Shown here: positions 10,750-21,204 of the stretch, piece after piece | Layout: the number at the start of each line of letters is the position of its first letter | Position numbering within the stretch: the stretch's first letter is position 1 | Position numbers and translations under genes: made by a program | Virus record (IMG/VR): IMGVR_UViG_3300044707_000421 | Span: 1 to 26,899 of that record | DNA from: a virus | Strand: one strand, 5' to 3' | DNA: 26,899 nucleotides | Notes under the pieces: model-generated | Database searches by the model: none | Seen by the model: the letters and a program-made list of their open reading frames with translations, nothing else | Told to the model about the DNA's origin: nothing

Positions 10750-12726
10750 GTGACGATACTTTGGCTCGACTTCGAGACGCGCTCCCGCGTAGACCTCACG
10801 GTCGCGGGGGCGTACAACTACGCGCAGGACATGAGCACCGAGGTGCTGTGCATGTCTTACGCCTTTGACGACGAAGAGGTCGTGACGTGGACGCCCGCCC
10901 AACCGTTTCCCGAGCGCGTGCGGCAGCACACCGGCCAGATTCGCGCCCACAACGCCGCGTTTGAGCGGTTGATCTTCTGGTATGTGCTGCAGATCAACTT
11001 CGATCTGGAGCAGTTCTATTGCACCGCGGCGCAGGCTCGCGCGAACTGCGCGCCTGGCAGCCTAGAGGACGTGGGCCGGTTCGCTGGCGCGGGGATGCGC
11101 AAGGATCACCGCGGCGCGCAACTGATCCGGCTGCTGTCCATCCCGCAGGCCGATGGCACCTTCCGCGAGGACGCGGCGCTGATGGCCGAGATGGCGGCCT
11201 ACTGCGAGCAGGACGTGCGGGCCATGCGGGCGTTCAGTCAGGCCATGCGCGACCTGTCAGCCGACGAGCTGGCCGACTACCACGCCAACGAGCGTGTGAA
11301 CGACCGCGGCGTGCTGGTGGACGTGGCGCTATGCAAGGCTGCGCAGCAATATGCCGTCGAGGAACTGGACGCCATCCAAGCCGAGGTGCGCGAGATCACC
11401 GAGGGCGCTATCACCAGCGTGCGCAGCCCGCGCATGCGCGAGTGGGTCTGGGAGCGCGTCGGCCCCGAGGCGCGGCGCCTGATGACGGTTCACAAAGACG
11501 GCGAAGAAAAGCAGTCCATCGACAAATCCGTCCGTGCCGCGCTGCTGATTCTAGCCGAGGAAAACCCCGACGAGGTGCCGGCGCACGTCGCTGACGTGAT
11601 CCAGTGCGCCGATGACCTGTGGGCCAGCAGCGTGGCGAAGTTCAAGCGGCTGGAGGAACTGGCCGACGTGGAAGACCACCGGGTGCGCGGCGCGTTCGTC
11701 TTCGCGGGCGGCGCGGCCACCGGGCGGGCGTCCAGCTACGGGGCGCAAGTCCACAACTTCACCCGCAAGACCGCCAAAGACCCGCAGGCCGTGCGCCACG
11801 CGATGGTGCGCGGCCACCAGATCGTGCCGCAGTTCGGCAAGCGGGTAACCGACGTGCTGCGCGGCATGCTGCGGCCGTCGCTGATCCCGGCGCCTGGTCA
11901 CTCGTTCGTCGTGGCTGACTGGTCGGCCATCGAGGGCCGGGTCAACCCGTGGCTGGCGAAGTCGCCCGCGGGCGAGGCCAAACTGGACGCCTTCCGGCAG
12001 CGCCTGGACGCCTACATCGTCAACGCTGCTGCGACCTTTGGCCGCCCCTACGCCGACATCCTGGCCGGCTACGAGGACGAGGAGCCCGAGGCGACGGCGC
12101 AGCGCCAGCTTGGCAAGGTGCAGGAATTGGCCTGCGGCTTCGCGGGGAGCGTCGGCGCGTTCAACGCGATGGGCCGCGCCTACGGGGTCGTGCTGCCCGA
12201 GGCCGAGAGCCGGCGCATGGTCAACGCTTGGCGCCGCGCGAACCCGTGGGCGCCGGCGTTCTGGTCGGACCTTGAGCGGGCCTACATGGCCGCGATGCGC
12301 AGGCGCGGGCAGGAGTTCACCGCGGGCCGGATAACCTACCTGTTTGACGGGGTTCACCTCTGGTATGCGCTGCCGTCCGGGCGTATCCTCTGCTACCCCT
12401 ATGCGCGCCTGGACTCTGACGGTATCAGCTACGCCAAGGCCGCCTGGAAGCCTGCGGCCGACGCCAAGGAGTGGCCCCGAGCCCGCCTGTGGCCGGGGCT
12501 GGCGTGCGAGAACGTCACGCAGGCCACCGCGCACGATCTGCTGCGCGGCGCGCTGCGGGCTCTGCCCGAGGCCGTCCTGCATGTGCATGACGAAGTGGTC
12601 TGCGAGACGACCGACCCTGAGGGCACGACTGAACTGATGCGGCGCGTGATGACGACGCCGCCTGAGTGGGCGGCAGGTCTGCCGCTGGACATTGGCATCA
12701 AAACGATGGAGAGATACGGGAAATGA
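10750..12726 (+). CDS. Family A DNA polymerase with 3'-5' exonuclease domain
   Basis: A 658-residue phage DNA polymerase. The N-terminus has a DnaQ/RNase-H-like exonuclease: LDFET with Asp7 and Glu9, AHNAAFER (66-73), YCEQDVRAM with Asp155. The polymerase motifs follow: motif A VADWSAIEGR (Asp390, Glu395), motif B RQLGKVQELACGF (Arg452, Lys456) and motif C HVHDEVV (His613, Asp614, Glu615). It lacks the 5'-3' exonuclease of bacterial Pol I. Motif B departs from the usual K-x7-Y-G arrangement, having Phe-Ala instead of Tyr-Gly. Start is uncertain: GTG 10750 (ITILWLDFE-like beginning) fits the domain but has no ribosome-binding site; ATG 10717 and TTG 10744 are alternatives. It overlaps the next gene by ATGA. 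Confidence 0.93.
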   Translation: MTILWLDFETRSRVDLTVAGAYNYAQDMSTEVLCMSYAFDDEEVVTWTPAQPFPERVRQHTGQIRAHNAAFERLIFWYVLQINFDLEQFYCTAAQARANCAPGSLEDVGRFAGAGMRKDHRGAQLIRLLSIPQADGTFREDAALMAEMAAYCEQDVRAMRAFSQAMRDLSADELADYHANERVNDRGVLVDVALCKAAQQYAVEELDAIQAEVREITEGAITSVRSPRMREWVWERVGPEARRLMTVHKDGEEKQSIDKSVRAALLILAEENPDEVPAHVADVIQCADDLWASSVAKFKRLEELADVEDHRVRGAFVFAGGAATGRASSYGAQVHNFTRKTAKDPQAVRHAMVRGHQIVPQFGKRVTDVLRGMLRPSLIPAPGHSFVVADWSAIEGRVNPWLAKSPAGEAKLDAFRQRLDAYIVNAAATFGRPYADILAGYEDEEPEATAQRQLGKVQELACGFAGSVGAFNAMGRAYGVVLPEAESRRMVNAWRRANPWAPAFWSDLERAYMAAMRRRGQEFTAGRITYLFDGVHLWYALPSGRILCYPYARLDSDGISYAKAAWKPAADAKEWPRARLWPGLACENVTQATAHDLLRGALRALPEAVLHVHDEVVCETTDPEGTTELMRRVMTTPPEWAAGLPLDIGIKTMERYGK

Positions 12727-15038
12727 CAACGACAGCAGAGTTCATCGAGTGGCTGGCCGCGCTGGCCCCCGAGGGCGAGACGGCCTTGATCGTGCGGCAG
12801 ACCCCCCGGCGCGGGGAGGGCGGCGAGGTGCTGCTGCACCCCGATGGGGCCGTGAAGGCGACCTGGCCCGCGTTCCTGCCCACGCGGCGCGTGAAGGCCG
12901 ACGAGGCGTGGTTTGGCAATACGGCCAGCTTTGTGATCGACCGCTTCATCGAGGGCAAGCCGAGCGCCAGCGCGGCGAACTGCGAGTATGTGCTGGCGAT
13001 GATGCTGGACGACATCGGCACGAAGTCCAAAGAGCCGCCGCTGGCCCCGACATGGATCATGGAGACGAGCCCCGGCAACTATCAGTGGGGCTACGCCTTT
13101 GGCGAGCAGCCGACGAAGGCTGAGTATGCCGCCGCCATCGAGGCGATTGCCGAGGCGGGCTACACCGACCCCGGCGCGTGCAACCCCGTGCGCAACTTCC
13201 GGCTGCCCGGGTCGGTCAACCTCAAGCCCAACGCGGGCGCGTTCGCCGCGCGCCTGGTGGAATTCGACCGCAAGCGGGAATACTCGCTCGCGGAAATATG
13301 CGCTGCGATGAACGTTACGCCCAAGCCCGTGTCCAGCAGCGGGCCGAAGCCCGTGCGCCTGGCCGACGATGGGGCCGACGATGTGGCCGCCTGGCTGTCG
13401 AGCCGCGGGCTGGTGCTGTCGCGCCCGAATCCGCAGGGCTGGATGGGGGTTGTGTGCCCGAACGCCGCCTCGCACACCGACGGCAACCCCGAGGGCCGCT
13501 ATCTGCCTTCCGGCCGGTCGTTTTGCTGCCTGCACAGCCACTGCGTCGATCTGGACTCGTCGTGGTTCCTCGAGTGGGTGGCCGAGCAGGGCGGGCCGAA
13601 GCACACGCCTGGCCTGCGCGACGAACTGCTGCAGACCGCCATGCTGCAGACCATCGGCCGCCTGACGCCGCCGCCTGAGATGGCCGCCGAGGCCGCGCAG
13701 GCTCTGGCCGAGGTCGAGCGCCGCGAGGTCGGACGGGTCGAGAAGGCCGGCTGGTGGGACCGCTTCGCCTACCTGGTGGCCGATGACGCTTACTTTGATC
13801 TTGAGGAGCGCCGGCAACTGTCGCGCGGCAACTTCAACGCGATCTTTCGGCACATTAGCTGCCGGTCAATCCACGGCAAGAACCCGAAGATCGAGGCGTC
13901 AGTCTGCTACGACGAACACCGGCAGGCCAAGGGCGGCCGGGTGCTGCAGGGGGTCACCTACGCGGCCGGGGAGTCGGTTCTCGTCTCGCGCTCCGGGGAT
14001 GTCTACGGCAACCGCTGGCGCGACGCGCGGCCCGTGGCCGCCCCGGCGCCGGATGCTGACGTGGGGCGCTGGCTGGCGCACGCCGAGGCGCTGATACCCG
14101 ATGCGGCCGAGCGGGCGCATGTCCTGGATGTCATGGCCTACAAGCTCCAGAACTCCCGCATCAAAGTGAACCACGGCATCCTGCACGGGGGCACGCCTGG
14201 CGCGGGTAAGGATACCCTGTGGGCGCCGTTCTTCTGGGCCGTGGGGAAGTCCAACGTCTCGCTCGTTCGGAACGAGGAGATCACCAGCCAGTGGGGCTAC
14301 GCTTACGAGTCGGAAGTCCTTGTCCTGAACGAACTGCGCCAGACCGAGGCGCGGGATCGTCGGGCGCTCGAAAACACGCTCAAACCGATTTTGGCCGCCC
14401 CGCCAGAGACGATTCCGATTCAGAGGAAGGGCCTGCATCCCTACGATGCCCTGAACCGGCTGCTGGTGGTCGCCTTCACGAACGAGCGCGCGGCAATTAG
14501 CCTGCCCTCGGATGATCGCCGATGGTTCGTCACCTGGTCCGGTGGCGAGCCGATGGCGAAGGACGCCGCCGCCGCCCTATGGGCCTGGTACGCGGCCGGC
14601 GGGTATGAGGCCATCGCCGGCTGGCTGCTGGCGCGGGATGTTTCGGCGTTCCAACCTGGCGCGGCGCCGATGATGACGGAAGCTAAGGCCATCATGCTGC
14701 AGGCGGGCTTGTCGGGCTCCGAGGCGTGGATTGTCGAGCAGGCCACCTACCGCCTCGGCCCGTTCGCGCGGGGCGTGGTGGGCGGCCCGTGGCAGGGCCT
14801 TTGCGATACGCTCCAAGCCCTGGCCCCCGGGCATCTCAAGATCGTCGTGCCTGCGCTCTTCCACGGGCTCAGGGAGGCCGGCTGGCACGATATGGGCCGG
14901 GTTTACAGCGTGGATCACCCGACGAAGCGCCACGCCTACCGCGCGCCCGACTGGACGGGCTCTAAGAGCGACGCGCGCCGGCTGCTAGAGCTTCCTTCGC
15001 CCAGTAGCGCGGAGATTATTGCGCGCGTCAAGGGCTAG
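12723..15038 (+). CDS. Primase-helicase (RepB-like primase plus D5/DUF5906 SF3-type helicase)
   Basis: A 771-residue two-part replication protein. Residues about 60-200 resemble archaeo-eukaryotic/RepB-type primase, with LAMMLDDIG (Asp96, Asp97) and the conserved-looking RNFRLPGSVNLK. Residues 240-275 hold a Cys/His cluster (VCPNAASH ... FCCLHSHC) compatible with a zinc site. Residues 480-610 are the helicase: Walker A GGTPGAGKDT (489-498), Walker B-like VLVLNEL (532-538, Asn-Glu in place of Asp-Glu), and the sensor VVAFTNE (Asn587), as in DUF5906/virulence-associated-E-like proteins. It would open DNA and lay primers for the polymerase encoded just upstream. ATG 12723 overlaps the polymerase stop. 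Confidence 0.9.
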   Translation: MTTTAEFIEWLAALAPEGETALIVRQTPRRGEGGEVLLHPDGAVKATWPAFLPTRRVKADEAWFGNTASFVIDRFIEGKPSASAANCEYVLAMMLDDIGTKSKEPPLAPTWIMETSPGNYQWGYAFGEQPTKAEYAAAIEAIAEAGYTDPGACNPVRNFRLPGSVNLKPNAGAFAARLVEFDRKREYSLAEICAAMNVTPKPVSSSGPKPVRLADDGADDVAAWLSSRGLVLSRPNPQGWMGVVCPNAASHTDGNPEGRYLPSGRSFCCLHSHCVDLDSSWFLEWVAEQGGPKHTPGLRDELLQTAMLQTIGRLTPPPEMAAEAAQALAEVERREVGRVEKAGWWDRFAYLVADDAYFDLEERRQLSRGNFNAIFRHISCRSIHGKNPKIEASVCYDEHRQAKGGRVLQGVTYAAGESVLVSRSGDVYGNRWRDARPVAAPAPDADVGRWLAHAEALIPDAAERAHVLDVMAYKLQNSRIKVNHGILHGGTPGAGKDTLWAPFFWAVGKSNVSLVRNEEITSQWGYAYESEVLVLNELRQTEARDRRALENTLKPILAAPPETIPIQRKGLHPYDALNRLLVVAFTNERAAISLPSDDRRWFVTWSGGEPMAKDAAAALWAWYAAGGYEAIAGWLLARDVSAFQPGAAPMMTEAKAIMLQAGLSGSEAWIVEQATYRLGPFARGVVGGPWQGLCDTLQALAPGHLKIVVPALFHGLREAGWHDMGRVYSVDHPTKRHAYRAPDWTGSKSDARRLLELPSPSSAEIIARVKG

Positions 15039-15123: not shown

Positions 15124-15186
15124 TTATAAGTCGAGTGCGATGAGGATGCAAGCGGCGACAAGGGCCGCGAGAAGTGCCCAGATCAT
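15124..15186 (-). CDS. Possible 20-residue membrane peptide
   Basis: An ATG at 15186 forms an ATGA overlap with the TGA of the methyltransferase-like gene and opens a frame for IWALLAALVAACILIALDL ending in TAA. The peptide is one uninterrupted hydrophobic helix of membrane-spanning length. Coupling to the upstream stop and the clear hydrophobicity make translation plausible, but at this length chance cannot be excluded. A second tiny membrane protein is encoded at 16113-16208 in the same operon. Confidence 0.45.
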   Translation of the reverse strand: MIWALLAALVAACILIALDL

Positions 15187-15779
15187 AGGCTGCCCCACTG
15201 GTCGGCCATAGCGGCGGCGATGCCGCTGTAGGTTTCGCTGCGCAGCTTCCACCTGTCGGGGCTGGGGCTCAAGCGGTTCTGACCGCTGTCAGTCTGATTC
15301 CCCCATCGCTGGCGCCCGTTGACGATGCGCGGCGGCACCAGTTGCGTCGGGCGCAGGGGCGGGAGCCCCTTCAGCCATAGGCAGGTTTTCTTGCTGGCGT
15401 CATGCCCGAACTGATGTGGGCTGATTATCTGGTCGGGCTTGCGGATGCGCGACGAGATGATGCTCACGGGATTTTCCAGCGCGATGCGCGGGATCGGCGC
15501 GGCCAGCAGCAGGCGCACAAAATCCAGCGCATCCTCAGTCAGTTGCGGATCGCGCAACCCGCGCCGGGTCCAGTGCATGCCGCTCACGCTGAGATACTTG
15601 CACGGCGGGTGCGCGATCATCAAATCCCATCCCATCTCAAGCACGTCCCGCACGTCCCCCTGATAGTGCGGCCCCGGCGCGTCGGTCGGGAGCAAGTCGC
15701 ACGATAGGGCATCGTGCCCCTGTGCGATGAAGGCATCCCGCACGGCGCCGCTGTACTCGCAGGCGATTAGTACCCTCAT
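15183..15779 (-). CDS. DNA cytosine-methyltransferase-like protein
   Basis: A 198-residue protein with methyltransferase landmarks: RVLIACEYSGAVRDAF at the N-terminus (AdoMet-binding strand and helix), LMIAHPPCKYLSVSGMHW (residues about 57-74, containing the Pro-Cys of C5-methyltransferases) and RIALENPVS (ENP in place of the usual ENV). It is much shorter than complete cytosine methyltransferases and no target-recognition domain is obvious. The family is widespread in phages as an orphan enzyme, without a restriction partner, and probably modifies phage DNA or nucleotides. Start ATG 15779 overlaps the upstream stop (ATGA). Confidence 0.75.
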   Translation of the reverse strand: MRVLIACEYSGAVRDAFIAQGHDALSCDLLPTDAPGPHYQGDVRDVLEMGWDLMIAHPPCKYLSVSGMHWTRRGLRDPQLTEDALDFVRLLLAAPIPRIALENPVSIISSRIRKPDQIISPHQFGHDASKKTCLWLKGLPPLRPTQLVPPRIVNGRQRWGNQTDSGQNRLSPSPDRWKLRSETYSGIAAAMADQWGSL

Positions 15780-16111
15780 GCGCGCCACCATGCCGGGGCC
15801 GCGCGGCCGGGGCCAAAGGCGCGGGTGGTATCCGAAGGCACGTCCAAGCCCTCAAGATGCGCCAGCAGCTCGGGCAGGGTTTCAAATTCGACAGTCTCGC
15901 CCGAGCACTGCATATCGTCGTCGTGCGGGTGAAGCGTGAAGCGCGCGCCGTCGCCCTCGCGCTGCGCGGGGTCGGCATGGTCAACCCAAAGCGATAGCCC
16001 GTCGCGCGTCAGACGCGGACAGACATCGTGCCGGTACACGTCATCAGTGCCGAACCCGTGCGCGAGGATGTCGTCTGGAACGTCGATTGTCGGGAAGTCA
16101 GAATGCTGCAT
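15776..16111 (-). CDS. Hypothetical protein, 111 residues
   Basis: An acidic, histidine-rich protein (VPDDILAHGFGTDDVYRHDV, then LWVDHADPAQREGDGARFTL, HPHDDDMQCSGETVEFETL). It appears to be a small globular alpha/beta protein; the many His and Asp residues could bind metal. No family recognised. Start ATG 16111 is one base after the stop of the upstream small gene; a TTG four codons earlier is possible but would overlap that gene. Confidence 0.65.
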   Translation of the reverse strand: MQHSDFPTIDVPDDILAHGFGTDDVYRHDVCPRLTRDGLSLWVDHADPAQREGDGARFTLHPHDDDMQCSGETVEFETLPELLAHLEGLDVPSDTTRAFGPGRAAPAWWRA

Positions 16112-16112
16112 G

Positions 16113-16208
16113 TCAGGCTCCAAGATGGTAGAAAAGCACGAGCGCCAGCGCCGTGCCGATGGCGCATGCGAGGGCCACGTCGGGCCATGTGGTGCGGGGG
16201 CGGCTCAT
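16113..16208 (-). CDS. Small membrane protein, 31 residues
   Basis: The peptide begins SRPRTTWPDVALACAIGTAL and continues ALVLFYHLGA: a short basic front followed by one membrane helix. ATG 16208 is in an ATGA overlap with the upstream gene, and the stop is followed after one base by the next ATG, so it fills the gap in the operon exactly. Positive charges before the helix predict an N-in orientation. Function unknown. Confidence 0.6.
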   Translation of the reverse strand: MSRPRTTWPDVALACAIGTALALVLFYHLGA

Positions 16209-16525
16209 TCGTCCACCTCCACGCTATCGACGCCCGTATAGAAGGGCGCGGGGCGGTCGGGCAGGGGCGCGTACAGCGCGAGGTGGTCGACGTGTGACGG
16301 ATACGCGGGCAGCTTGCGCTGCTGGCTGTTGAGCTCGAAATACTGGCGCACATAGTCGGCTGTTGACATGGCCGGGTCCCATTTCGGGAATAGGCGTTTC
16401 TCACTGCGCGCCCAGCGCGTGCGCAGGGGCTTGAGCGCTGCTAGCTGCAGCGGCACGCTAGAGCCTGGCGCGAGGGTATATCGGGCGCGGGTTCCGTCGG
16501 GGTAGCGGGTTTCGATTGTGTGCAT
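16205..16525 (-). CDS. Hypothetical protein, 106 residues
   Basis: The N-terminus HTIETRYPDGTRARYTLAPG looks like a beta hairpin; the middle is basic (LRTRWARSEKRLFPKWDP), the C-terminus contains YVRQYFELNSQQRKLP and an acidic tail. No motif recognised. It is coupled by an ATGA overlap to the membrane peptide downstream and starts three bases after the preceding gene's stop. Confidence 0.65.
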   Translation of the reverse strand: MHTIETRYPDGTRARYTLAPGSSVPLQLAALKPLRTRWARSEKRLFPKWDPAMSTADYVRQYFELNSQQRKLPAYPSHVDHLALYAPLPDRPAPFYTGVDSVEVDE

Positions 16526-16528
16526 GGC

Positions 16529-16738
16529 TCAGGCTCCCTTGAGCATGCGGGCGCATGCTGCATCGTAGATTTCGCGGGCGTTTTCGCTCAGGGTTTCGAC
16601 GCTCAGGGACGGGCGCGGGCGGAAGCTGCGCGCGAGCTTGCACAAGCGCGCATACTCTCGGGACCATTGACCCCCGTGGCAATGGCTCAGGGCCAGATAG
16701 TAGGCCTCAGCGATGTCGAATCGGTCGAAGTAAGGCAT
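16529..16738 (-). CDS. Small phage protein of the YFDRFDIAEAYY type, 69 residues
   Basis: The N-terminal PYFDRFDIAEAYYLALSH, then GGQWSREYARLCKLARSFRP and PSLSVETLSENAREIYDA form a pattern I know from many short phage proteins (YFDRFDIxEAYY ... SREYA ... RPRPSL ... LSEN) of unknown function. Start: ATG 16738 is chosen because GGAG stands nine bases upstream, whereas the upstream in-frame ATG at 16747 directly touches that GGAG. Confidence 0.8.
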   Translation of the reverse strand: MPYFDRFDIAEAYYLALSHCHGGQWSREYARLCKLARSFRPRPSLSVETLSENAREIYDAACARMLKGA

Positions 16739-16750
16739 GGCTGTCATCTC

Positions 16751-17053
16751 CTATTGAACAACGACAAGGGCACCGCGGCCGCCGCTACGCTGGGCGCCGC
16801 ACCAGCCGGCGCCGATGCTGGCGACGCGGCCGTCGGTGATGCGCGCCTCGATGTACTGGATTTTGCAGGTGTATCGGTACGAGTTCGGCACGAACCCGGC
16901 CGCAGCGTAGACCCTCACGCGGTTTTGAGCGCGCGCGGCCTCGCGGAGGGCGATGCGCACGCGGGACCAGTCGCACGCGCGCTTTGTGGCGAGCGTTTCG
17001 GCGGGCAGGGAGGCGCGCAGCGCGCGCAATTGGGGGCGAAGGTGGAAAAGCAT
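16751..17053 (-). CDS. Hypothetical protein, 100 residues
   Basis: The front half is basic and helical (LFHLRPQLRALRASLPAETL, then RVRIALREAARAQNRVRVYA); the back half has strands (YTCKIQYIEARITDGRVASI) and a glycine-rich end. Start ATG 17053 is preferred over ATG 17059 because GAGAGG lies six bases before it. No family recognised. The same spacing of a GGAG or GAGG followed by ATGACA is seen at the neighbouring gene 16738. Confidence 0.65.
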   Translation of the reverse strand: MLFHLRPQLRALRASLPAETLATKRACDWSRVRIALREAARAQNRVRVYAAAGFVPNSYRYTCKIQYIEARITDGRVASIGAGWCGAQRSGGRGALVVVQ

Positions 17054-17059
17054 TGTCAT

Positions 17060-17187
17060 CCTCTCAGTAAGGCGCCGGCTCGGCCGGCAGGGGTGGACGT
17101 GGCGCGCGCACGGGGCGCGCGAGTGGGGGAAGGCAGGGGTAGTGCAAGGGCACGGGCGGGAAGGGCCACACGGGGCCCTTATGGGGC
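17060..17187 (-). other. Intergenic segment with three inverted repeats
   Basis: This 128-base gap in the operon contains GCCGGC-tcg-GCCGGC (17074-17088), a GCGCGC-rich inverted repeat around 17102-17121, and AAGGGCC-6 bases-GGCCCTT (17161-17180). None has a T-run. A 35-residue proline-rich frame (GTG 17171 to TGA 17064) crosses it, but it has no ribosome-binding site. The hairpins may pause transcription or shield mRNA ends. Confidence 0.5.
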
Positions 17188-17601
17188 TTAGTAGACACAG
17201 AGCCCCCGGGTGTAGTAGCTGTCGGCGCTGGCGCCGGCCGGCACGTCACCAGGGCGCAGGATGTAGAGCGCGGCGCCGCGCGGATCGGGCTGGATGTAGC
17301 TCCAGACGGGATCGGGCATGCGCGCGTTGCGCGCGCCGATGATGGCTTGCAAGCGCAGAAGCGCGCCCGTCTCCCGGTCGGACACGGGCCAGCGGCGCCC
17401 GCTATCCGCGCGCCAGTACGGGCGCCCGGTGGCATCGTCGCGCTCGATGCATCCGCCATCGATGCCGCATTCCAGCTCGTGCCAACGGCGCAAGGTGAGG
17501 CTGATGCGCCGCAGGCGCTCGGATTCGTCGGGCGTGAATCCGAGGGTGCAAAGGGCGTTTTCCTGCGCCGTGAGGCGCGCGGCTTCTTTCTTAGTGGGCA
17601 T
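17188..17601 (-). CDS. Hypothetical protein, 137 residues
   Basis: The protein starts PTKKEAARLTAQENALCTLG, continues FTPDESERLRRISLTLRRWH, ELECGIDGGCIERDDATGRP, and ends in GASADSYYTRGLCVY. The phrase LRRISxTLRRWHELECG is a recurring helical element in small phage proteins, followed by a short Cys-containing beta region (CGIDGGCIERD). It carries no catalytic motif I recognise. ATG 17601 is preceded by GGAGATTACG, a leader repeated before the gene at 17811. Confidence 0.7.
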   Translation of the reverse strand: MPTKKEAARLTAQENALCTLGFTPDESERLRRISLTLRRWHELECGIDGGCIERDDATGRPYWRADSGRRWPVSDRETGALLRLQAIIGARNARMPDPVWSYIQPDPRGAALYILRPGDVPAGASADSYYTRGLCVY

Positions 17602-17616
17602 GGCGTAATCTCCGGG

Positions 17617-17811
17617 TTAGGCTTCGAGGGTGACGGTAAACGCGAGGCGATCGCTAATGCGACCGTCTCGGTTCAGGTCGTCAATGAAAACCGAGAAGGC
17701 TTGCCTCATGGCAGGCTTATCGGTGCGGTACGCCGGCACGGCTGCGCAGCGGGCACGCCAGAAGGCGCGGAAGGCGCGGCGCACGTCACGGGCGCGGGTA
17801 ATCTGAATCAT
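17617..17811 (-). CDS. Small phage protein of the ARDVRRAF type, 64 residues
   Basis: The protein begins IQITRARDVRRAFRAFWRAR and ends with DDLNRDGRISDRLAFTVTL. The RARDVRRAF front and the closing D-G-x-I-S/T-x-x-L-A-x-x-V-T-L segment are familiar from short proteins in phages of Proteobacteria. The front helix is strongly basic, hinting at nucleic-acid contact. Start ATG 17811 follows TTGGAGATTACGACC; the longer frame lacks such support. Confidence 0.75.
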   Translation of the reverse strand: MIQITRARDVRRAFRAFWRARCAAVPAYRTDKPAMRQAFSVFIDDLNRDGRISDRLAFTVTLEA

Positions 17812-17830
17812 GGTCGTAATCTCCAAGGGG

Positions 17831-18085
17831 TTAGGCCAAATCGGTGCGCACGTGCATAGCGTCGCCGTGCGCGTCATCGTCCCATTCGGTGATAAAGGCG
17901 CAGGTGGCGCCGCTGCGGGAATCGTAGCGATCGCATCCGACCGAACGGAACCCGAGGCCGGATTCCCGGTTGATCCGAATGAGGGCGCCGCGCGGCGATG
18001 ACGCGCGCACCTTGTGCCGCGTCACCCATGAGTAGTTAGCCTCGCCGCCGAAAGTGTCGGTAATCTCAACGAAATAGTGGGTCAT
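17831..18085 (-). CDS. Small phage protein of the EDTFGGEANYSWV type, 84 residues
   Basis: The first half, THYFVEITDTFGGEANYSWV followed by TRHKVRASSPRGALIRINRE, is a pattern found in many small phage proteins; the second half (CDRYDSRSGATCAFITEWDD) looks like a beta hairpin with two cysteines. It is probably a compact alpha/beta protein. Function unknown. Start ATG 18085 has GGAGAGAG upstream. A 77-base intergenic stretch with a strong hairpin (18131-18151, AGGCGCCC/GGGCGCCT) precedes it. Confidence 0.75.
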   Translation of the reverse strand: MTHYFVEITDTFGGEANYSWVTRHKVRASSPRGALIRINRESGLGFRSVGCDRYDSRSGATCAFITEWDDDAHGDAMHVRTDLA

Positions 18086-18162
18086 GGTTCTCTCTCCATG
18101 TAGTGTGGGCTTGGCGCTGGTGCACCCCATAGGCGCCCGCACGGGGCGCCTAGGCGGGTGGA

Positions 18163-18360
18163 TCAGGCTTGGCGAACGGTTTCGATCCAGCGCAACACGT
18201 CGGCCGTAGCGATCCAATCCTTTCGTGCGCCGTCCACGTCCAAGCCTTGAAACTTGGTCGATAGCAAGTGTTGACGCAACCATTCGATTTCATGCGCGAT
18301 AGTCTCAAGGCGCGAGGCGCGATCGGCGCAGATGCTTTCGAGGGTCTTGATGTAGTTCAT
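18163..18360 (-). CDS. Small phage protein of the KDWIATADVLRW type, 65 residues
   Basis: The sequence is NYIKTLESICADRASRLETI, then a helix IEWLRQHLLSTKFQG, then ARKDWIATADVLRWIETV. The coiled-coil front with a C-terminal K-D-W-I-A-T-x-D-V segment is known from short phage proteins without assigned function. Start ATG 18360 follows GGAG by about eight bases. Upstream lies the perfect inverted repeat GCGCGCCC/GGGCGCGC (18380-18397). Confidence 0.75.
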   Translation of the reverse strand: MNYIKTLESICADRASRLETIAHEIEWLRQHLLSTKFQGLDVDGARKDWIATADVLRWIETVRQA

Positions 18361-18407
18361 GCTGTCAGTCTCCAATGATGCGCGCCCGTGGGCGCGCGGG
18401 CTGAGGG

Positions 18408-18635
18408 TTAGCGGGTGACGTACCGGCCGGCGTCATATTCGGCGAGCACGGCCGGGCCGATGGTGTTCGGCGTGGCATCGAACCCGAACACCGTAACGGT
18501 GCCGCTGATACCGCGCGCGGCGTCAACGAACGTCGCGGGCACGTCGGCCATGACGTCATCGGTGGGCGCGAACGTGATCTCAAGGACTTGAGCGGCGCCG
18601 TAGTCGCGGCCGGTACGATAGGTTACGGTGTTCAT
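18408..18635 (-). CDS. Hypothetical protein, 75 residues, first gene of the second minus-strand operon
   Basis: The product (NTVTYRTGRDYGAAQVLEIT, FAPTDDVMADVPATFVDAAR, VTVFGFDATPNTIGPAVLAE, YDAGRYVTR) looks like a small beta-rich protein. Low arginine content and an acidic character separate it from the basic genes downstream. ATG 18635 has only a weak purine-rich stretch upstream. I recognise the general style of an early phage protein but no function. Confidence 0.7.
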   Translation of the reverse strand: MNTVTYRTGRDYGAAQVLEITFAPTDDVMADVPATFVDAARGISGTVTVFGFDATPNTIGPAVLAEYDAGRYVTR

Positions 18636-18801
18636 ATCGTTGCGAGAGTAAAGAGTTAAGGGGAGCCCGGACTGTAAAGCATTGTCGGTACCCGAGTGAA
18701 GTGTAAGGGCTTAGCCCGGTTTTCTAGCACCTACGCTAGACGCGCAGCTAGGTGCCGCCCGTGTCGCGGCCGACCGAGGGGGTTAGGTACTTTAGGTAGT
18801 C

Positions 18802-18828
18802 TATCTATCACCCTTTGACTGATAGATA
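18802..18828. promoter_or_regulatory. Operator-like inverted repeat
   Basis: TATCTATCA (18802-18810) and TGATAGATA (18820-18828) are perfect reverse complements separated by nine bases. Centre-to-centre spacing of about 18 bases (nearly two helical turns) suits a dimeric helix-turn-helix regulator. It lies at the predicted start of minus-strand transcription. No regulator gene is recognised in the window. Confidence 0.55.
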
Positions 18829-18855
18829 AATATAAGTAGGGGCTTATATAAGCAA
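18829..18855 (-). promoter_or_regulatory. Candidate promoter of the second minus-strand operon
   Basis: On the minus strand TTGCTT (18855-18850) is followed after 15 bases by TATATT (18834-18829, five of six matches). The spacer is short by two bases, so the call is tentative. The predicted start at about 18822 falls in the operator-like inverted repeat, and the -35 side overlaps the 12-base palindrome GCTTATATAAGC (18842-18853). This would leave a leader of nearly 190 bases before 18635. Confidence 0.35.
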
Positions 18856-18972
18856 ATAGGGGTAGAGCGATTTTGTTTCGATAGCCTAAGCGCCTATATG
18901 ACCTATCAGCCCCGAGCCCCCCACACCCGCGCCAGGTGCCCCCAGTATGCGGGCTAGGCGTACCCGGCCCGA

Positions 18973-19100
18973 TAGCCTAGAGCGCCTAGCCCCATGCTAC
19001 CCGGCCTGCCGGCCCGGTATGCATAGCCTAGACAGCCTAGAGCGCCTAGATGGGGGCCACCGGCTGCCAGCCGGTAGCCTAGAGCGCCTAGGCTGCCTAG
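18973..19100. repeat. Three clusters of phased GCCTAG nonamers, 51-bp period
   Basis: TAGCCTAGAGCGCCTAG occurs at 18973-18989 and 19075-19091, and CAGCCTAGAGCGCCTAG at 19033-19049 preceded by TAGCCTAGA at 19024. The basic unit is nine bases, xxGCCTAGx. CTAG tetramers stand at 18977, 18986 / 19028, 19037, 19046 / 19079, 19088, 19097: exactly nine bases apart within clusters, and clusters start exactly 51 bases apart. An ACCGGCTG-c-CAGCCGGT palindrome (19059-19075) lies between the last two clusters. The arrangement resembles iterons or a multi-site protein-binding array. Confidence 0.85.
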
Positions 19101-19140
19101 CAGCTGGCGGGGGGCCAGGGCTGCAGGCGGGCGCCCAGGC

Positions 19141-19166
19141 GGGGCCGGGGGGTGGGGGGCGGGGGG
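19141..19166 (+). other. G-quadruplex motif upstream of the small terminase gene
   Basis: Four G-runs on the plus strand: 19141-19144 (4), 19147-19152 (6), 19154-19159 (6) and 19161-19166 (6), with loops CC, T and C. Very short loops and long runs predict a very stable quadruplex in single-stranded DNA. It lies about 70 bases before the terminase promoter -10 box. Confidence 0.75.
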
Positions 19167-19215
19167 TACCCATCGACGCGGCTGGGGCAGGTGTCAAAAA
19201 CGGAGGTGCCACAAC

Positions 19216-19231
19216 CAAAAAATATTTTTTG
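19216..19231. repeat. Perfect 16-bp A/T palindrome
   Basis: CAAAAAATATTTTTTG reads the same on both strands. It stands immediately upstream of the -35 region of the terminase promoter and could work as an UP-like element, a bent-DNA site or an operator. It is not a terminator, because the arms are A/T only. Confidence 0.6.
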
Positions 19232-19234
19232 CAA

Positions 19235-19263
19235 GTGCAAACGACATTCCATTGCCGTATACT
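19235..19263 (+). promoter_or_regulatory. Candidate late promoter of the terminase operon
   Basis: TATACT (19258-19263) is a good -10 box; the best-spaced -35 is GTGCAA (19235-19240, spacer 17), a weak match, so an activator or the A/T palindrome upstream may help. The predicted start is at about 19270, two bases before the ATG at 19272. Confidence 0.55.
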
Positions 19264-19271
19264 CCGCGGCC

Positions 19272-19754
19272 ATGTTCAAAAGCTTGCCGCTCACGACCCG
19301 AGATGTGCGCGCGACTGAGGCGGTGCTGAACCGCATCTACGACGCTGCGCGGCTAGGGCTCAAGGGGGACGCACTGGCGCTGGCAAGCGGGCTGCTGCCG
19401 GCCGAGTACCGGCGTTTGCGCGAACTGGACCCGATTGCCGACCTGGCCGAGCAGAAAGGGCGCGCGGACGGCGAGATGGCCCTGTCCAAGAAGTTGCACG
19501 AGGCGGCCGAGATGGGCGACGCCAAGGCGGCGCTGGAAATCCTCAAGCACGCCCACGGTTGGGTGGCCAAGCAGCAGGTGCAGATCGACGTGGCGCAGCA
19601 GATCAGCATCACGGCGGCGCTGGAGGCGGCGCAACGGCGCGTGAGTGAAGTGATAGAACTGGAGACGCAGGATGCAAGAGCCACGCTTCTCAGCAGCCCA
19701 AGAGCAGAGCCTGATGGCCAAGCTCTGGTCGCCCGAGATAGCCAACGATCCTGA
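19272..19754 (+). CDS. terS: Terminase small subunit
   Basis: A 160-residue protein. The N-terminal half contains RATEAVLNRIYDAARLG and the basic helices of a putative DNA-binding domain; the second half has EMALSKKLHEAAEMGDAKAA, LEILKHAHGWVAKQ and a helical oligomerisation segment (DVAQQISITAALEAAQRRV). The AL-x-x-LEx-x-x-x-GW segment followed by QVQIDVAQQIS resembles phage small terminases, and the gene directly precedes and overlaps the large subunit. It would recognise phage DNA for packaging, possibly at the repeats upstream. The ATG has no ribosome-binding site and lies next to the predicted transcription start. Confidence 0.85.
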   Translation: MFKSLPLTTRDVRATEAVLNRIYDAARLGLKGDALALASGLLPAEYRRLRELDPIADLAEQKGRADGEMALSKKLHEAAEMGDAKAALEILKHAHGWVAKQQVQIDVAQQISITAALEAAQRRVSEVIELETQDARATLLSSPRAEPDGQALVARDSQRS

Positions 19755-21204
19755 GAAGTTCGTCCTGTTCGTCTTCCCTTGGGGGGAAGCCGGCACGCCG
19801 CTGGCCAAGTACAAAGGCCCGCGCGCCTGGCAGCGCAAGGTGCTGCGCGACATCCGCGACCACATCGCGCGCAACGACTACGCGGCTGCGTATGAGGTGC
19901 TGCGCATGGCCATCGCCTCGGGCCGGGGCATCGGCAAGTCGGCGCTGGTGTCGTGGCTGGTGCTGTGGATGCTCACCACGCGAATAGGCGCGAGTGTGCT
20001 AATCAGCGCCAACAGCGAGGCGCAGCTACGCTCGATCACTTGGGCCGAAATCACCAAGTGGCTGGCGATGCTCATCAGCAGCCACTGGTGGGAGATAAGC
20101 GCCACGCGGATCACCCCGGCCAAGTGGTTGAGCGAAATCGTGGAGCGCGATCTGCGCAAGGGCACGCGGTACTGGGGCGCGGAGGGGCGGCTGTGGTCGG
20201 AAGAGAACCCGGACGCCTACGCGGGCCTGCACAACGCAGACGGCGTGCTGCTGATCTTTGACGAGGCCAGCGGCATACCGGACGTGATATGGGACGTTAG
20301 CCAGGGCTTTTGGACGGAGAACACGCCCAACCGCTTCTGGCTGGCGTTCAGCAACCCGCGGCGGGCGCAGGGGTACTTCTACGAATGCTTCCACGCCAAG
20401 CGGGATTTCTGGACGACGCAGCAGATCGACTCGCGCACGGTGGAGGACACCGACAAGGCGGTCTACGAGCAGATCATCGCGGAGTACGGCGAGGACAGCC
20501 CGCAGGCCAGGATCGAGGTCTACGGGCAGTTTCCCACAACGGACGACGACCAGTTCATCCCCCAGAGCCTGGTGGCCGAGGCGATGGCCAGAGAGCCGTG
20601 GCGCGACCAGAGCGCGCCCATCGTCATCGGCGTGGACCCGGCGCGCTCGGGCGCGGACAGCACGGTCATAGCCGTGCGGCAGGGGCGCAATATCATCACT
20701 TTGAGGCGCTACCGGGGCGACGACACCATGACGGTCGTCGGGCACGTCATCCAGGCCATCGAGGAGTTCCGGCCGGCGCTGACGATGATCGACGAGGGTG
20801 GGCTGGGCTACGGCATCCTTGACCGTCTGACCGAACAGCGGTATAAGGTGCGCGGCGTGAACTTCGGCTGGAAGTCCACGAAGCCCGTCATGTGGGGCAA
20901 CAGGCGCGCGGAGCTATGGGGCGCGCTCAAGGACTGGCTCAAGACCGCCAGCCTGCCACAGGACAAGCAGCTTCGGGACGACCTGACCGGCCCGCGCACC
21001 AAGCCCGACTCGTCGGGCAAGATCTTTCTGGAGTCGAAGAAGGACATGAAGGCCCGTGGGCTGGCGTCCCCTGACGCCGCAGACGCCATCGCCGTGACGT
21101 TCGCGTTCCCGGTGAGCAGCGACGTTGGCAGCGCCTTCTTCGGCACGGTTTCCAAGTTCTCCGCGCTGCCGACCCGCCACCACTGGTCCGCTGCCGGCCA
21201 CTGA
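19672..21204 (+). CDS. terL: Terminase large subunit (ATPase-nuclease)
   Basis: A 510-residue packaging motor. ATPase: Walker A-like SGRGIGKS (83-90) and Walker B LLIFDEAS (193-200), with the coupling segment LAFSNPRR. Nuclease (RNase-H fold): IGVDPARSG with Asp322, TMIDEGG with Asp374 and SPDAADA with Asp468/Asp471. All catalytic acidic residues are present. It pumps DNA into proheads and cuts it with TerS help. Using ATG 19672 it overlaps terS by 83 bases; ATG 19714 (AKLWSPEIAND start) is an alternative giving a 41-base overlap. The portal gene follows after eight bases. Confidence 0.95.
   Translation: MQEPRFSAAQEQSLMAKLWSPEIANDPEKFVLFVFPWGEAGTPLAKYKGPRAWQRKVLRDIRDHIARNDYAAAYEVLRMAIASGRGIGKSALVSWLVLWMLTTRIGASVLISANSEAQLRSITWAEITKWLAMLISSHWWEISATRITPAKWLSEIVERDLRKGTRYWGAEGRLWSEENPDAYAGLHNADGVLLIFDEASGIPDVIWDVSQGFWTENTPNRFWLAFSNPRRAQGYFYECFHAKRDFWTTQQIDSRTVEDTDKAVYEQIIAEYGEDSPQARIEVYGQFPTTDDDQFIPQSLVAEAMAREPWRDQSAPIVIGVDPARSGADSTVIAVRQGRNIITLRRYRGDDTMTVVGHVIQAIEEFRPALTMIDEGGLGYGILDRLTEQRYKVRGVNFGWKSTKPVMWGNRRAELWGALKDWLKTASLPQDKQLRDDLTGPRTKPDSSGKIFLESKKDMKARGLASPDAADAIAVTFAFPVSSDVGSAFFGTVSKFSALPTRHHWSAAGH

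Follow-up and report, generated by a model that had tools for sequence, protein, structure and literature searches.

Organization of the intergenic region upstream of terS

The window (the whole stretch of DNA analysed here, a 26.9-kb virus record) comes from a P22-like podovirus with genes for the portal (phrog_156), the coat (phrog_283) and the large terminase subunit (phrog_2). Between a leftward gene (18408-18635) and the small terminase gene terS (start at 19272) lies an intergenic stretch of about 632-636 bp, occupied by an array of short direct repeats and its left extension. The features considered below are the following, with coordinates in the window, strand, and the basis of each assignment in parentheses.

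12726..15038, plus strand: primase-helicase, 770 aa, with a RepB'-like primase domain, an SF3/D5-like helicase and a C-terminal domain (domain and fold matches, motif covariation)
18724..18751, no strand: left block with three CTAG spaced exactly 12 bp apart, CTAGCACCTACGCTAGACGCGCAGCTAG, in part inverted, CTAGCACCTA / TAGGTGCC (sequence)
18784..18800, minus strand: inverted unit pair TAGGTACTTTAGGTAG, TAGG at 18784 and 18793, 9 bp apart, bordering the AT-rich island on the left (sequence)
18785..18880, no strand: AT-rich island, 36.5% GC, candidate DNA-unwinding element (composition)
18884..18906, plus strand: island-proximal unit cluster, CCTA at 18885, 18893 and 18902 (sequence)
18954..18960, minus strand: lone CTAGGCG, inverted unit (sequence; TAGGCG retained at the same place in relatives)
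18975..18989, plus strand: putative iteron cluster 1, GCCTAGAGCGCCTAG, 2 units (sequence; 0 of 20,000 shuffles)
19026..19049, plus strand: putative iteron cluster 2, GCCTAGACAGCCTAGAGCGCCTAG, 3 units (sequence; shuffles)
19077..19100, plus strand: putative iteron cluster 3, GCCTAGAGCGCCTAGGCTGCCTAG, 3 units (sequence; only in the closest relatives)
19150..19235, plus strand: G-rich box ending ACGGAGG..C.CAA....TTTTTT, from about 130 to about 50 bp ahead of terS (conservation)
19258..19263, plus strand: TATACT, resembling a -10 hexamer, 8 bp ahead of the terS ATG (sequence; conserved in relatives)
19272..19754, plus strand: terS, small terminase subunit, 160 aa (position and weak fold match)
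19672..21204, plus strand: terL, large terminase subunit, 510 aa (phrog_2)

The hexamer GCCTAG occurs eight times upstream of terS, at 18975 and 18984, at 19026, 19035 and 19044, and at 19077, 19086 and 19095. The CTAG tetramers in these units, each preceded by GC, start at 18977 and 18986, at 19028, 19037 and 19046, and at 19079, 19088 and 19097. The step is 9 bp inside the clusters and exactly 51 bp from cluster start to cluster start. The initial annotation had reported this pattern upstream of the terminase, and all its positions were confirmed. The spacing is far beyond chance: among 20,000 dinucleotide-preserving shuffles of 18900-19150, none had at least five CTAG pairs at 9 bp or at least five at 51 bp (the maximum was three each). 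The CTAG count alone is unexceptional for the local composition of 18900-19150 (1,389 of 20,000 shuffles). The tetramer is rare in the window as a whole, as had also been claimed, with 26 observed versus 44 expected, and 12 of these 26 fall in the 632-bp intergenic region (18640-19271).

The whole feature exceeds what was initially described, as extra units and an AT-rich island are found to the left of the array. The 60-mer with the lowest GC content of the window lies at 18791-18850 (31.7% GC; window 65%). The CTAG triplet of the left block is retained at 11-12 bp in ten relatives (L001-L008, L016, L019), and the inverted pair has a conserved counterpart of TAGG/TATAGG repeats. Direct repeats beside an AT-rich island are the textbook layout of an iteron origin. 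Here, both the window and the wider family show a single short motif directly repeated with nearly constant phasing, and the adjacent AT-rich element is found in the window and in 47 relatives (mean 25% GC).

The terS product was modeled with an N-terminal helix-turn-helix. Its resemblance to Sf6 TerS is weak and below the safe level (Z 6.5, rmsd 5.1, 84 residues aligned), and TerS has no Pfam or PHROG match. Given the position of TATACT 8 bp before the ATG, the mRNA of the late operon may have little or no leader. Two further observations concern the region to the left. At 15183-15791, on the minus strand, the window carries a DNA-methyltransferase-like gene (phrog_757) with a patchy distribution in relatives. 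At 18089-18173, apparently between two small leftward genes, a block of about 85 bp is 96-99% identical in L160 and L161 despite diverged flanks; short conserved blocks like this one occur at comparable places in other pairs, and it is possible that it represents an RNA or promoter element.

Shared architecture and turnover of the motif

Relatives whose TerS is 72-86% identical have the array at the same place, and the 9- and 51-bp steps are preserved. Single units have decayed in these relatives, with CCTAG turned into CATAG or CCTAT; only the closest of them have the third cluster. Near the position of that cluster, tandem repeats (GGCAGAC, GGCAGGC, GTGCTGATCGTCA and similar words) stand between the array and the G-rich box in L005-L009, L013, L101, L104 and L018. 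In L010-L012 an inserted gene, homing-endonuclease-like by reading, separates the array from terS, and therefore close adjacency to terS seems unnecessary. An annotated homing endonuclease was also seen between array and terS in another relative (L156:10712-11158).

For a family-wide survey, we took 180 relatives that have a TerS homologue and sufficient sequence before it, and scanned the 700 bp upstream of terS for three or more clusters in which a word recurs every 8-11 bp, with 20 shuffles per region as the control. Such clusters were found in 54 of the 180 relatives versus none of the 3,600 shuffled regions; in part of the 180 the array is weak or absent. The common architecture consists of pairs or triplets of a unit of about 9 bp; the clusters are about 40-50 bp apart and have a low-GC island on their left. 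Relative to this AT-rich island, 350 of the 354 forward paired sites in 47 strong arrays are on the right, and 60 of the 107 inverted sites are on the left. The mean GC content of the island in these arrays is 25% versus 57%, a mean reached by none of the control stretches. Paired sites occur only upstream of terS in most strong-array genomes; in weak-array genomes this test has no power. The comparison of relatives thus supports the initial proposals of a protein-binding array and of an iteron-type origin beside an AT-rich island.

Within this architecture the motif itself changes. The classes found across relatives include GCCTAG, TGCCTACC, TGACCCAT, TGTCCACA, TTGCTGACA, TTGCCAACA, TGACTCACA, TACCCCACG and others. 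An alignment of 101 units yields a loose common unit, approximately A-T-[TG]-[GA]-[CT]-C-[CT]-A-C-A, which is imperfect for some classes. This suggests that the classes are variants of one ancestral unit and not unrelated repeats. The recurrence of the array beside the same terminase, which the initial annotation had put forward as a check, gave a divided answer: the architecture is kept, and the motif differs in some relatives with identical TerS.

Several array-like patterns were set aside. A second array in G011 is a tandem repeat just downstream of the primase gene of that genome and no origin array. Several of the matches found without TerS (L238-L241, L246, L250, L251, L255, L260) are long 9-bp tandem repeats. 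Rhodoferax phage P26218 was considered as a possible cultured relative and rejected, its genome layout being different. Some relatives come from MAG contigs binned with Burkholderiales among others, which is weak evidence for the host. In L101, L102, L104, L061 and others, there is a leftward gene of about 215 aa (MKITIDHSIIKALLICAAK...), some 0.9-2 kb to the left of terS, whose product in some relatives has the look of a sliding-clamp-type protein; the window showed no such gene.

The motif follows the primase-helicase

Motif similarity was compared with protein similarity in 53 genomes (1,255 pairs). The pairs are not independent, so the figures rank the candidates and are no probabilities: rho with the motif is 0.43 for the primase-helicase (bootstrap 0.26-0.57), 0.32 for an SSB-like protein, 0.24 for TerL, 0.20 for TerS and 0.18 for the polymerase. 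After mutual correction, the partial rank correlation of the primase-helicase is 0.355, as high as in none of 500 permutations; the others drop to 0.13 for TerL (8 of 500 permutations), 0.04 for TerS (125 of 500) and 0.02 for the polymerase. No gene family present in at least 50 genomes beats the primase-helicase in the family-wide covariation. Class-specific genes were also considered as the reader and discarded, the matches being antisense or short ORFs inside the array.

TerS was rejected as the reader of the array on the basis of the covariation. Motifs are unrelated in phages whose TerS proteins are 98-100% identical (L078/L104 and L026/L028/L030); L078 and L104 have an identical TerS and arrays of TGACCCAT and TACCCCACG, respectively. 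Different motifs beside the same TerS contradict the idea that TerS reads the units. One recombinant clade with TerS 93-100% identical indicates where the specificity may reside. Between its TTGCTGACA phages (L025-L027, L029) and its GGGTACA-type phages, the N-terminal half of the primase-helicase is 86-97% identical, whereas the C-terminal half is only 64-65% identical across the groups and 91-100% identical within them. The motif changes exactly where the C-terminal half changes, while the N-terminal half and TerS do not. Among pairs with TerS at least 80% identical, the AUC for sharing the same motif is 0.82 for the C-terminal half, 0.63 for the N-terminal half and 0.45 for TerS. Over all pairs, however, the two halves are about equally good predictors of the motif, and the claim for the C-terminal half therefore rests mainly on the recombinant clade and the TerS-similar pairs.

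There are two exceptions to this co-evolution of specificity with the putative initiator. The primase-helicases of L101 and L104 are 96-100% identical beyond the first 50 residues, and their arrays are of TGACCCAT and CTACCCCACG. These motifs share an ACCC core, and the discordance may represent a small shift or the contribution of a second protein. In addition, L242 has the GCCTAG motif with a primase-helicase only 59% identical.

The primase-helicase as the proposed reader

RepB_primase and DUF5906 score above the cut-off in the primase-helicase. The protein unites a primase domain with an SF3/D5-type helicase domain in one chain, as initiators of the P4 alpha and SaPI Rep type do. The AlphaFold model has a mean pLDDT of 81 and a pTM of 0.45, so that the packing of the domains is uncertain. 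Residues 338-741 match the helicase regions of NrS-1 PrimPol (Z 25.2, rmsd 5.6, 370 residues), the SaPI5 primase-helicase 7ola (Z 17.1, rmsd 5.6, 345 residues) and PriRep1 with dsDNA, 7pds (Z 13); further helicase matches are D5/E5, AAV Rep and papillomavirus E1. The N-terminal domain matches RepB' and S-2L PrimPol, with Z 12 for the RSF1010 RepB' primase (3h20/3h25). By these model comparisons, the fold relatives are SF3-type self-loading initiators. In residues 652-755 the order of helices and strands fits a winged helix, and in the whole-protein model the alignment with 7ola reaches residue 759. Several genes separate the primase-helicase gene from the array, which starts 3.7 kb further on.

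Replication, packaging or transcription

Because the motif follows the primase-helicase, including the switch of its C-terminal half, and not TerS, we consider it probable that the array consists of replication-origin iterons recognised by the phage's SF3 primase-helicase and is not a pac or cosB site. The pac/cosB sites of P22, SPP1, P1 and lambda contain a repeated short motif near terS, and the array resembles them in this respect; unlike them, its motif lacks covariation with TerS. According to the packaging reading, which the initial annotation had offered for the small terminase, the units would be TerS-binding sites (pac or cosB-like) with terminase cutting nearby. The array adjoins terS in nearly all relatives, the P22-like head suggests headful packaging from a pac site, and L253, whose TerL is only 33% identical, has a GCCTAG array beside a TerS that is 57% identical. 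Moreover, three near-complete linear contigs, G020 (L060), G025 (L105) and G027 (L110), end 105-733 bp upstream of terS; these may be termini made by packaging or places where assembly broke off at the array repeats, and circular assemblies break at scattered places. Against these points, the unrelated motifs beside nearly identical TerS proteins, the negligible partial correlation and low AUC of TerS, and the homing-endonuclease-like genes parting the array from terS in L010-L012 make packaging an improbable function of the array. Blast blocks point in the same direction: recombination exchanges the array but leaves terS and the preceding 150 bp or so in place. The retained part contains the G-rich box, which is conserved across motif classes. 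In TerS-similar pairs with different motifs, the box is covered in 74% and the array in 36%. The G-rich box appears to travel with terS independently of the array and would be a better pac/cos candidate than the array.

The units could also be operators of a phage regulator of variable specificity, such as a late activator or an immunity-type repressor, located where the promoters of the leftward operon (15183-18635) and of the late operon diverge. Genes diverge around the region, the spacer is AT-rich, and divergent specificity is typical of immunity regions. But in most strong-array genomes other promoters lack the paired sites, which is not expected of operators or stoperators, no candidate regulator gene was found to switch with the motif, and the array persists where a homing-type gene is inserted before terS. 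With the motif tracking the primase-helicase instead, we regard transcriptional control as very unlikely. Still another reading keeps the origin and assigns it to a different protein, either a host initiator such as DnaA or a phage protein linked to the primase-helicase. The DnaA box is TTATCCACA, and one motif class, TTGTCCACA (L033, L039, L045, L054, L069, L171-L173 and others), is one base off it; the L101/L104 discordance and a DnaA domain IV-like protein encoded by MW202483 also fit such a reader. However, most motif classes are unlike DnaA boxes. A phage protein with a DnaA-type HTH was rejected as the reader, being seen only in MW202483 among 24 records, with the Bac_DnaA_C protein absent from the other 23 searched. 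As none of the widespread gene families follows the motif more closely than the primase-helicase does, another reader seems highly improbable.

Cumulative GC skew, an initially suggested check for an origin, was computed and gave no support at the array. The detrended minimum lies about -9.4 kb from terS in most near-complete relatives (about 9-10 kb in the window), close to the switch in gene orientation, and gene orientation confounds GC skew as an origin indicator.

A putative iteron origin and its relation to known systems

The array, its spacing, the island, the family-wide architecture, the turnover of the motif and its covariation with the primase-helicase and not with TerS are computed observations. 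From these we infer that the primase-helicase binds the units, that the island melts and that replication starts here. The intergenic region at 18.72-19.10 kb would be the origin of replication of this phage. The GCCTAG units would serve as iterons, on which several copies of the primase-helicase could dock through the C-terminal half, and the spacing of the clusters by five helical turns would align the docked subunits along the same side of the helix. Hexamers might then assemble beside the AT-rich island (18.79-18.88 kb), which would melt and allow the SF3 helicase to load itself and prime synthesis.

Origins of this kind are known. SGI1 oriV is a tested example of an iteron origin (PMC7433901). 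The iteron origins of plasmids such as RSF1010, SGI1 and others likewise have direct repeats beside an AT-rich region, and the RepB' primase of RSF1010 is the fold relative of the N-terminal domain noted above. In contrast, the iterons of these plasmids are longer (17 bp in SGI1, PMC7433901) and their iteron-binding initiators are separate proteins. In P4 alpha, primase and helicase are fused as they are here, and a winged-helix domain binds the origin repeats (PMC4234260); the P4 primase is of the bacterial Toprim type, whereas the protein in the window has a RepB'-like domain.

One report describes SaPI Rep and SCCmec Cch2 as reading short iterons with a C-terminal domain (PMC7581432). The SaPI replicon, as presented there, has multiple short iterons and an SF3/D5-type self-loading helicase; in the window the reader is predicted, and its helicase half matches the SaPI5 protein (7ola, Z 17). 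However, the SaPI origin is directly downstream of rep, while the array here is 3.7 kb off, beside terS and in a P22-like podovirus, and its motif turns over within one phage family. Cch2 is similar in having a D5-type helicase, and its isolated C-terminal domain binds intergenic AAGTG direct repeats. It differs in that there are three repeats only and the element is a cellular mobile element and no phage; an AT-rich island with inverted arrays is not among the features described in the accessible text (PMC7581432).

No earlier description of these arrays was found in literature searches. What appears to be new is the place of the putative origin beside terS, far from the initiator gene, and how quickly its units change inside a single phage family; the kind of origin itself is known. 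A more tentative idea, which we think rather unlikely, is that the iteron sequence is a hypervariable identity tag. The C-terminal half of the primase-helicase and the iterons would then be swapped or rewritten as a set, next to an unchanging terminase, so that origin 'incompatibility groups' would exist among otherwise near-identical phages. Rival phages might drive such turnover, as might homing endonucleases or nucleases directed at the origin. By analogy, the ICP1 nuclease Odn is thought to drive iteron change in PLE (PMC8263062). Homing-endonuclease genes are often located at conserved sites, and those of L010-L012 and L156 could be connected with the turnover of the array.

Conclusions

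A likely replication origin of a widespread, almost uncultured family of P22-like podoviruses has been located by comparison alone. Repeats beside terS need not be a packaging site, and caution is needed in annotating them as such. The family offers a natural catalogue of about ten iteron types with matching SF3 primase-helicases, from which a DNA-recognition code for this helicase class could be derived. If the turnover of the motif is selected, it would represent an arms race over replication specificity among these phages.
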